From: an uncultured Alphaproteobacteria bacterium
Lineage (GTDB): Bacteria; Pseudomonadota; Alphaproteobacteria; UBA11222
Reading direction: 5' to 3'
Length of the DNA: 64,000 bases
Assembly (NCBI GenBank): GCA_947258435.1
Contig: CAMYID010000012.1
Coordinates: forward strand, 62,001-126,000
Each line of letters begins with the position of its first letter. Positions within the stretch are counted from its first letter, which is position 1. Positions 13,711 to 55,538 of the stretch are shown here, in pieces. Both the position numbers and the translations under genes were made by a program. The notes beneath the pieces were generated by a model. That model made no database searches, had not been told where the DNA came from, and saw only the letters and a list, made by a program, of their open reading frames with translations.

Positions 13711-13802
13711 ACGGCACAGGGATTTTCATCCCTCCCGCCGTTGCCCTTCCTGGGCGTTTCCTCCCTAAACTCGGGCCGTTCCTGCGGGAACGGCCTTTTT
13801 TT
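13711..13802 (+). ncRNA. small RNA resembling the alpha-r8/suhB (MmgR) type
   Basis: The inferred RNA is about 92 nt. It starts with a closed stem ACGGC/GCCGT (13711-13715 with 13737-13741) enclosing the hairpin GGGAT-TTTC-ATCCC. A second hairpin GCCC-TTCCT-GGGC (13743-13755) follows. Next is an unpaired segment with TTTCCTCCCT (13757-13766), then a strong Rho-independent terminator. As I recall, MmgR/alpha-r8 RNAs keep exactly such an unpaired UUUCCUCCCU motif before the terminator; it resembles an anti-Shine-Dalgarno sequence and would pair with ribosome-binding sites of target mRNAs. The 5' end is inferred from the promoter at 13677-13704. No reading frame explains the segment. Family identity is inferred, not tested. 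Confidence 0.65.
13774..13802 (+). terminator. Rho-independent terminator of the sRNA
   Basis: A perfect 9-bp stem, GGCCGTTCC (13774-13782) with GGAACGGCC (13787-13795), encloses a TGCG loop and is followed by seven T residues. This is the strongest intrinsic terminator in the window. Confidence 0.92.
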
Positions 13803-13907
13803 CTTCTTCGCGGCAAGCCGGCGCCAAAGGGCGAATAACGCTTTGTGGAAATGCCGCGCTTCTCTACACTTAATCCTGGAAAACAACAAGTATCAGGGGG
13901 AGGGATT

Positions 13908-53186: not shown

Positions 53187-54437
53187 TCAGCTTGCGACGG
53201 GGAAGGTGCGGATGAATTCCTTGATCCGGGGGGCGATTTCGTTGCGCCAGCGGCTGCCATTGAATACGCCGTAATGGCCGACCCCTTTCTGGATATAGTC
53301 AAGCTGCTTTTCGGCCGGAATGTTTTTGCACAGATCGTGCGCGGCCTGGGTCTGGCCGATTCCGGAAATATCGTCAAGTTCACCCTCCACCGTCATCAGC
53401 GCGGTTTTGGTGATCTTGTCGGGGCGGACCGGGCGCCCGCGATGGGTGGCCTCACCCTTGGCCAGGCTGAATTTCTGGAACACCTCGCTTACCGTCATCA
53501 GATAGAATTCAGCCGTCAGGTCCATCACCGACAGATATTCGTCATAGAATTTCCGGTGCGCTTCCGCCGAATCGCCGTCGCCGCGCACAAGGCTTGTGAA
53601 CAGATTGCGGTGCGCGTTCAGATGCCGGTCCAGATTCATGCTCATAAAGCCGCTCAGCTGCAAAAAGCCGGGGTAAACCCGGCGCATGAAGCCCGGATTG
53701 GGCAGCGGCACATGGGTAATGAGATTATGCTCGAACCAGGAAAGCGGCCGTTCGGTGGCCAGCAGATTGGGTTCGGTCGGGCTTTGGCGTGCATCGATCG
53801 GGCTGCCCATCAGCGTCATGGTGGGGGGCTGATAGGGATTGTCTTCTGCGGCCATCAGCGCCACCGCCATCAGCACCGGCACGCCGGGCTGACAGACCGC
53901 CAGCACATGGGTGTCCGCGCCGATCATGCGCAGGAATTCAATGATGTAATCGATATAGTCGTCGAGGTCGAAATGCCCCTCGCTGACCGGCGCCATGCGC
54001 GCATCGCGCCAGTCGGTGATATAGACTTCGTGATCGGGCAGCATCGCCGCCACCGTGCCGCGCAGCAAGGTCGCATAATGGCCCGATAACGGTGCGACGA
54101 TCAGCAGTTTGGGATCGTCGCGCTTCGCACCATCCTCAAACTGGCGGGCAAAATGTTTAAGCTGTCCGAATGGCTTGCGATAGACGATCTGTTCCTCGAT
54201 GGGCACCTCCTGCCCCTCGATCATCACGTGGTCGAGCCCGAACTCAGGTTTGTCATAGCGCCGGGTCAGCCCGTCCAGCACATCGATCGCAGCGGATGCC
54301 GTATGCGCAAAGGGGCTAAACCGCATGGGGTTTGACGGATGCAGCAGTGAATATTTGCTGGCCCGCATCGCCGCGCGCATCGGGGCGATGGCCGCATGTC
54401 CCAGTTCAAAAGCGTGATAGAGCATAAAACTATCCAT
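53187..54437 (-). CDS. phaZ: intracellular polyhydroxyalkanoate depolymerase
   Basis: A 416-residue intracellular PHA depolymerase that mobilises storage PHB granules. The nucleophile is Cys182 in VLAVCQPGVPV, as in the cysteine-type PhaZ of Cupriavidus. The rest of the triad is probably the aspartate in VEGELDDISG and the histidine in GVGHYGVFNG. The N terminus MLYHAFELGHAAIAPMRA is diagnostic. No PHA synthase, phasin or phaR gene lies in the window; in many Alphaproteobacteria phaC would be divergent from phaZ, but here that side holds an RNA-like locus. A PhaR-box-like site lies 36 bp before the start. Confidence 0.93.
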   Translation of the reverse strand: MDSFMLYHAFELGHAAIAPMRAAMRASKYSLLHPSNPMRFSPFAHTASAAIDVLDGLTRRYDKPEFGLDHVMIEGQEVPIEEQIVYRKPFGQLKHFARQFEDGAKRDDPKLLIVAPLSGHYATLLRGTVAAMLPDHEVYITDWRDARMAPVSEGHFDLDDYIDYIIEFLRMIGADTHVLAVCQPGVPVLMAVALMAAEDNPYQPPTMTLMGSPIDARQSPTEPNLLATERPLSWFEHNLITHVPLPNPGFMRRVYPGFLQLSGFMSMNLDRHLNAHRNLFTSLVRGDGDSAEAHRKFYDEYLSVMDLTAEFYLMTVSEVFQKFSLAKGEATHRGRPVRPDKITKTALMTVEGELDDISGIGQTQAAHDLCKNIPAEKQLDYIQKGVGHYGVFNGSRWRNEIAPRIKEFIRTFPVAS

Positions 54438-54484: not shown

Positions 54485-54760
54485 TAAATAGCATCGCGAC
54501 GCTCGGATTTCCAGCGATAATGTTACGGCATCCCCGTTAGCAAGGCGTTTACGCCCTGTTGCAGGTGCGAATGGTTTTGCCGAAAAGCCGCTTGCAACAG
54601 CGCTTATGGTTACGGTTGAGAAAGTCAAAACCGAAACTATTTCAAAATGACAAAGACAAAACTCCTGAAGAGCGCCAGGTATTTGTGCTGTATTTCATTT
54701 TATTTCAGAAAAATCGCAGAAATATTTTTATTAAACCTTTTGTTAACACATAGTCCTCAT
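54485..54760. other. non-coding region upstream of phaZ, AT-rich toward its right end
   Basis: No reliable gene is visible. A basic 64-codon frame starting near 54559 has no ribosome-binding site and no familiar sequence. CTGTTGCA (54556-54563) and TGCAACAG (54593-54600) form a distant inverted repeat. From 54660 on, A+T rises, as expected for a promoter of the following RNA-like locus, but no clean -35/-10 pair is found. Confidence 0.5.
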
Positions 54761-54866
54761 ACTGACACTCAGCTGTCATATGGATACGTCCCCCAACGGC
54801 ATCCGCTTTGTCAGACGGCTCCCTGTTGAAACTTGGGCTGCAATTTTTTTGCAGCCCATTTTTTTT
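54761..54866 (+). ncRNA. putative small RNA with 3' module like the 13.7-kb sRNA
   Basis: No open frame explains this segment, yet it ends in a perfect intrinsic terminator. A 5' hairpin TGACA/TGTCA (54763-54778) is followed by C-rich TCCCCC. Then comes CTCCCT (54819-54824) and AAACTTGGGC (54829-54838), which runs into the terminator stem. The sRNA at 13.7 kb has CTCCCT followed at once by AAACTCGGGC, again running into its terminator stem, so the two 3' modules look related. The 5' end is a guess and no good promoter was found. It could instead be the leader of the DUF1465 gene. Confidence 0.45.
54835..54866 (+). terminator. Rho-independent terminator
   Basis: GGGCTGCAA (54835-54843) pairs with TTGCAGCCC (54849-54857) around TTTTT and is followed by A and eight T residues. 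There is no gene end just upstream on this strand, which argues for a short non-coding transcript. Confidence 0.88.
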
Positions 54867-55007: not shown

Positions 55008-55538
55008 ATGGACGATTGGGAACAGAATCAGGATGACATGGGGCAGCCATTTGCCGGCGTTGCGGTTTTTGCGCGTTCTGAATTGTTTTCGCGCATCTAT
55101 GACGATGCCATGCAGATGGTACGCGATGCAGCCGATTATCTGGAACTTGATGGCCAGATCGACCGCAATTCGATGCCCGACGATCTGGCGCCGGTTTATG
55201 CGTGCGAGAGCATGCGCCTGACGACACGGCTGATGCAGGTATCGGCGTGGCTGCTTGCGATGCGCGCGGTTCAGGAAGGTGAGCTGAGCAGCGACGATGT
55301 CAAGGGCAGCCGTTACCGGCTTGGTGCTGCCGATGTATGCCTTGGCGGGCCGGTTCGTGGCGCCGGCCTGCTGCCTGCGCAGCTGATCGATCTGCTTGGT
55401 ACAAGCCGGCGGCTTTATGAACGGGTGGCGCGGCTTGATACCCTGTTGTTCGAGGATGCGGTCGATCAAGGCGCTGGAAATCCTGTCGATCAGCAGCTCA
55501 ACCGTCTGGCGCGGGCATTTAACCGCAAGGAAGAATAA
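55008..55538 (+). CDS. DUF1465 family protein
   Basis: A 176-residue protein of the alphaproteobacterial DUF1465 family. Recognisable parts are FARSELFSRIYDDAMQMVRDAADYL and CESMRLTTRLMQVSAWLLAMRAV, both helical, and the C-terminal LLGTSRRLYERVARLDTLLFE. The function is not known to me; the protein is soluble and mostly helical. ATG 55008 has AAGGG upstream. A terminator hairpin follows 94 bp after the stop, and rpmE converges on it from the other side. Confidence 0.8.
   Translation: MDDWEQNQDDMGQPFAGVAVFARSELFSRIYDDAMQMVRDAADYLELDGQIDRNSMPDDLAPVYACESMRLTTRLMQVSAWLLAMRAVQEGELSSDDVKGSRYRLGAADVCLGGPVRGAGLLPAQLIDLLGTSRRLYERVARLDTLLFEDAVDQGAGNPVDQQLNRLARAFNRKEE

Follow-up and report, generated by a model that had tools for sequence, protein, structure and literature searches.

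Cell-cycle small RNAs have been studied in Caulobacter and Sinorhizobium. The Caulobacter cell-cycle RNA CcnA is described as encoded at the origin of replication, with a CCCC loop and a predicted CtrA site in its promoter (PMC8959179). For Sinorhizobium, the neighbours given are divK-pleD/rpmG in the case of EcpR1 (PMC4414408) and SMc03844/SMc03845 in that of GspR (PMC5928217). RcdA is described as one of the adaptors for the regulated degradation of CtrA (PMC8959179), and a CtrA motif has been reported upstream of its gene both in S. meliloti, with TAA-N7-TTAAC as the CtrA-site consensus (PMC3616915), and in agrobacteria (PMC10469942). For BjrC1505 (RF02356 in Rfam) no stated function was found in accessible sources. 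The limited collection of literature that we searched held no paper connecting this RNA with rcdA or CtrA, and the terms sought on the question were absent from the available text of a survey (PMC3927594).

The RNA locus at 54.8 kb

In the window, i.e. the whole stretch of 64,000 nucleotides that we analyzed, a terminator is located at 54834-54866 on the plus strand, with a stem of 10 pairs followed by a T-run; of three terminator-like sites in the stretch scanned it is the best. No protein gene ends ahead of it, and the gap in which it stands runs from phaZ (53187-54437, minus strand) to a DUF1465 gene (55008-55538, plus strand). A preliminary description had seen in this lone perfect terminator the mark of an RNA-like locus, and our analysis bears it out: the segment folds better than all of 200 shuffles (z -4.9) and the locus is present, in the same phaZ–DUF1465 gap, in the six genomes of the bacterial family examined, as expected of an autonomous and conserved small-RNA gene. 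We consider that this is almost certainly a real RNA gene. Of the bounds first proposed, 54761-54866, the end stands; the gene probably begins near 54771, a position that we infer from an invariant AGCUGUC, a possible -10 hexamer (CATACT, 54758-54763), the class-wide geometry and the conservation; a scan for sigma-70 consensus promoters found none at the locus. The RNA would thus measure about 96 nt.

Folding places a 5' hairpin with a C-rich loop (CCCCCA, 54790-54795) at 54782-54804, and a weak hairpin, GACG-GCTCCC-TGTT, at 54814-54827 that would show an anti-Shine-Dalgarno-like GCUCCC. Overlapping the latter, a pattern scan located the 3' module CTCCCTGTTGAAACTTGGGC (54819-54838). The body of the RNA has 70 invariant columns out of 96 in five sequences of the family, while the flanks diverge, and everything from AGCUGUC through the T-run is nearly invariant. 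Covariation within the family alone is almost nil (1 of 26 pairs). Over 33 diverse loci the terminator stem does covary, with 7 of 8 predicted pairs changed on both sides, and UUGACGCCUCCCUGUU is nearly invariant. The class consensus keeps the weak hairpin as GACG-CCUCCC-UGUU in nearly all 33 sequences, and when these are folded singly, one or two more hairpins appear on the 5' side, of which some have C-rich loops (10 of 33 by pattern). In the variant of the window, the weak hairpin competes with a possible pairing between the 5' AGCUGUC and GACGGCU. An RNA modelled in this way would be suited to pairing with G-rich ribosome-binding sites.

A crude search for targets, with a simple duplex energy against the leaders of 47 automatically chosen starts in the window, gave no convincing target, those of ctrA and rcdA not being outstanding; with the 5' part of the sRNA the rcdA leader ranked 6th. 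One candidate pairing with the rcdA leader, through a GTTGGG match found in the window and in one further family genome (G001), was rejected, as it is not kept in three genomes of the sister genus g2 (G003-G005).

Relation to BjrC1505 and MmgR

Four Rfam families match the locus over their full length and below their gathering scores. The model of BjrC1505 scores it 34.8 bits (gathering score 50), suhB (RF00519) 33.3 bits (cut-off 41), and SorY (RF02651) and SorX (RF02784) 22.3 and 21.5 bits, far under their cut-offs. The RF02356 cut-off is reached in none of the six family genomes. Genome-wide, at E up to 0.001, RF02356 matches this locus alone, from model position 1 to 140 (E 8.1e-5). In an Rfam scan of 18 loci, nine were over the RF02356 cut-off, and two metagenome-assembled genomes (MAGs) of the family were below it. 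The locus of Bradyrhizobium jicamae, which precedes rcdA on its own strand, scored 131.8 bits.

Two covariance models of our own were also used. The first, R1, was made from five sequences of the family only and was searched against 55 sources. It gave 45 matches with E up to 1, namely the locus of the window (102 bits), MmgR, one Caulobacter site located elsewhere and 42 loci from outside the family, with the BjrC1505-type loci scoring from 44.9 bits (best E 8.7e-7) down. The second, R2, combines 33 sequences, the window's own among them, so that its 59.5 bits at 54.8 kb are not an independent score. Its only other match in the window is MmgR (27.6 bits, E 5.2e-6). Because of these results with R1, RF02356 and R2, we regard the locus as very probably a divergent relative of BjrC1505.

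The other small RNA of the window, at 13.7 kb, is MmgR (13736-13810, plus strand), which the suhB model scores 71 bits, well over its cut-off. It had been proposed that the two RNAs are members of one family, on the resemblance of the bases that lead into their terminators. The resemblance is real. The window has exactly two sites for the pattern CTCCCT-N0..6-AAACTYGGGC, one in the module at 54819-54838 and one, in a variant form, within MmgR at 13761-13776, and 100 shuffles gave none; the R2 match to MmgR agrees with it. A single narrow family is not supported, given the score of the 54.8-kb locus under the suhB cut-off and the result of R1, which ranks MmgR last (16 bits, E 0.67). On this sequence comparison the 3' module makes MmgR a relative too, but a more distant one. 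Elsewhere the genome has a third sRNA carrying this module, which is SorX-like (35.9 bits, cut-off 46.6; L151 1487-1559, corresponding to G000:C23:199395-199457). That MmgR, BjrC1505, SorX and SorY have a 3' module in common does not imply a common pathway.

The neighbouring rcdA gene and the CtrA-type box

The DUF1465 protein of the window matches the RcdA structure (PDB 3ctw) with an E value of 1.2e-31. It scores 143.5 bits with the NCBIfam RcdA model, for which the equivalog cut-off is 170 and is exceeded by the Bradyrhizobium and Caulobacter proteins. By these structure and profile matches the gene is rcdA, coding for the predicted protease adaptor for CtrA degradation. We examined 80 rcdA loci of named genomes with R2, and 22 of them gave a match of 54-99 bits, the next best being 21.9. 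All 22 matches preceded rcdA on its own strand, at 182-351 nt from the protein match. The carriers were Bradyrhizobium jicamae, Nitrobacter, three Stappia, Roseibium, Microvirga, Methyloligella, two Parvibaculum, Hyphomicrobiales and other MAGs, and two MAGs of the window's own family. Among the 34 rcdA loci titled Caulobacter, Phenylobacterium, Brevundimonas or Caulobacterales/-aceae, as counted by record titles, none had a match of 54 bits or more. Three Caulobacter genomes gave no R2 match above 31.5 bits, and the matches found there were suhB.

We then turn to 278 genomes drawn evenly from the class, 104 of which had a DUF1465 gene. R2 gave 28 matches of at least 49 bits, 25 of them in genomes with DUF1465 and 21 on the same contig as this gene. 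Specifically, 17 of the 28 shared the strand of DUF1465 and were located within 2 kb upstream of it, with an additional one at 3.4 kb, counts that, like those of the promoter box given below, come from loci related by descent and are not independent. No strong match showed another arrangement within 6.5 kb of the gene, and 10 of the 28 were not within 6 kb upstream of rcdA. Matches below 49 bits upstream of rcdA were left out of the linkage evidence since one of them (G100) is suhB and another (G092) suhB-like; inspected singly, most had a CCUCCCUGU-type core and several had the box.

The picture for phaZ is different. It adjoins the sRNA in 20 of 207 loci examined, all 20 from the window's own family. 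Of the BjrC1505 loci retrieved from outside the family, 12 have DUF1465 as a neighbour, and phaZ is found beside none. Judged from these arrangements, it is rcdA and not phaZ that the class has conserved as partner, which suggests that phaZ stands beside the 54.8-kb locus by local arrangement only.

Some loci show other arrangements. In one genome (G214) the BjrC1505-type RNA is repeated in tandem ahead of DUF1465 (L028 45-130 and 245-329) and an additional copy ends a different contig, and a genome in which no DUF1465 was detected has two strong copies, of 75 and 60.7 bits (L018; G006:C110:66834-66927). In two g2 genomes (L206 1046-1120, L207 1042-1116) the MmgR gene follows rcdA on the same strand, at a distance of about 3.8 and 5.2 kb, in contrast with the window, where 41 kb separate it from rcdA. 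The suhB RNA of G100 lies 1.2 kb upstream of rcdA (L219 276-349). Both kinds of sRNA, MmgR/suhB and BjrC1505-type, may have arisen near rcdA.

Upstream of the sRNA of the window, at 54732-54746 on the plus strand, the sequence TAAA-CCTTTTG-TTAA agrees in 7 of 8 positions with TTAA-N7-TTAA and resembles a CtrA box, placed at about -39 to -25 from the presumed start. We looked for this box, at a match of at least 7/8 and 58-108 nt before CTCCCT, in the 48 loci with enough upstream sequence; three loci without the CTCCCT anchor (L019, L020, L025) and the first copy of L028, with too short an upstream part, were left out. The box was found in 40 of the 48, compared with 5-18 at spacings of 2-6 and 8-14 and with a Markov background averaging 5.9 (largest value 13 in 300 runs). 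After thinning of similar upstream parts the figure was 34 of 42. Besides, it was present in 11 of the 11 loci in which no rcdA was seen within 2 kb, one of them (L039) at a contig end, and since this is so the box goes with the RNA. Within the window's family, the 7/8 box was found in the window and in G001, and was missed at the expected place in the other four of six loci, all of genus g2, which keep only its TTAACC half.

This genome encodes CtrA itself, with a score of 425.8 bits that exceeds the cut-off. An 11-mer covering the box, CTTTTGTTAAC, has only two sites in the 2.88-Mb genome, the 54.8-kb locus and a position 54 nt before ctrA, and its reversed pattern has none; it was picked after comparing both promoters, which makes its rarity a post hoc observation. 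In Rfam, the RF02356 consensus begins with UUuACggccuAUUaac, i.e. TTTA-N7-TTAA, and because of this the model may represent promoter DNA, and not RNA, over about its first 45 positions.

A candidate sRNA of the CtrA circuit

The explanation that we favour, at a probability of about two in three, is that of a CtrA-linked, stand-alone trans sRNA, a relative of BjrC1505 with rcdA as its neighbour. We take it to be quite probable that the RNA acts in trans; its function is likely to be tied to the CtrA programme and not to PHA storage. Phosphorylated CtrA would switch the sRNA on through the predicted box, which overlaps the -35 region. The RNA would bind Hfq, and its C-rich loops, CCCCCA and GCUCCC, would pair with the G-rich ribosome-binding sites of target mRNAs, tuning in this way the CtrA cell-cycle programme. 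As RcdA is the genomic neighbour and aids CtrA degradation, a single CtrA-linked locus would have both the RNA and the protein as its outputs.

The preliminary description had seen possible support for a storage circuit, in which a second MmgR-like RNA beside phaZ would control PHA genes. The 3' module common with MmgR beyond chance, the phaZ neighbour in all six family genomes and the MmgR genes past rcdA in two g2 genomes all speak for it. However, the presence of the locus beside phaZ in relatives, which had been proposed as a check, holds inside the family and fails in every locus examined outside it, MmgR matches the family's own model poorly, and the phaZ leader ranked near the bottom as a duplex partner (with the 5' part, 45 of the 47 background leaders equalled or bettered it, in what is a crude test). 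With phaZ as neighbour in this family only and rcdA kept across the class, the storage reading is not supported and we consider it very unlikely. The alternative that the same description had set against its own proposal was that the segment serves the DUF1465 gene as an attenuator or 5' leader, the terminator ending an abortive transcript that controls rcdA. The common strand, the 141 nt from the T-run to the rcdA start in the window and the linkage across the class would agree with this, but RNA and box occur together without rcdA seen within 2 kb in 11 of 48 loci (L039, at a contig end, among them), three of which have rcdA more than 40 kb away. Besides, the gap between RNA and rcdA is 1 to 6 kb in some genomes and the leader sequence after the terminator is not conserved. 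An attenuator is disfavoured by the loci without a nearby rcdA, and seems to us improbable.

Two further readings concern the function of the RNA and its control. An inert terminator relic, or a functionless RNA hitch-hiking with rcdA, is hard to believe when the RNA body is conserved well beyond its diverging flanks and UUGACGCCUCCCUGUU is kept over such diverse loci. A BjrC1505-type trans sRNA without CtrA control, the box being a chance sequence or the site of another regulator, would account for the degenerate box in four of the six family loci. Against it stand the enrichment specific to the N7 spacing and the box in all the loci with no rcdA seen nearby, and we hold it to be rather unlikely. 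The favoured reading, a CtrA-linked trans sRNA, can be carried further, tentatively and with more doubt than belief: BjrC1505 and its relatives could be an ancestral cell-cycle sRNA of the whole class Alphaproteobacteria, co-inherited with rcdA and driven by CtrA, on whose circuit it would act back by means of its C-rich loops. Caulobacterales would have lost this sRNA, using CcnA instead.

Among the known systems, BjrC1505 is the one that the 54.8-kb locus resembles in most of its parts: the nearly invariant GACGsCUCCCUGUU core, the terminator, the geometry from box to RNA, and the place, which in Bradyrhizobium and Nitrobacter too is ahead of rcdA and on its strand. The differences are that the type family has two 5' hairpins before the CUCCCUGUU core, while the window's family folds one, with a C-rich loop, and that GACGG stands where the type has GACGC. 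MmgR/suhB has in common with the locus the module CTCCCT...AAACTYGGGC and the terminator, but not the UGCCCUUCUUGGGCGUUUCCUCCCU hairpin, which is missing from the locus, and the Rhodobacter RNAs SorX and SorY are similar in the 3' module, CUCCCUGUUG-ACUU-GGC. The rcdA linkage and the CtrA-type promoter box give BjrC1505 a concrete and testable role, that of a small RNA belonging to the CtrA circuit, in addition to the cases studied so far in Caulobacter and Sinorhizobium. EcpR1 and GspR, as described, are likewise conserved sRNAs that act on cell-cycle regulators, although with other neighbour genes. CcnA, compared by description only, is alike in outline, with its CCCC loop and predicted CtrA site, and differs in that its gene is at the origin of replication and that of the 54.8-kb sRNA is beside rcdA.
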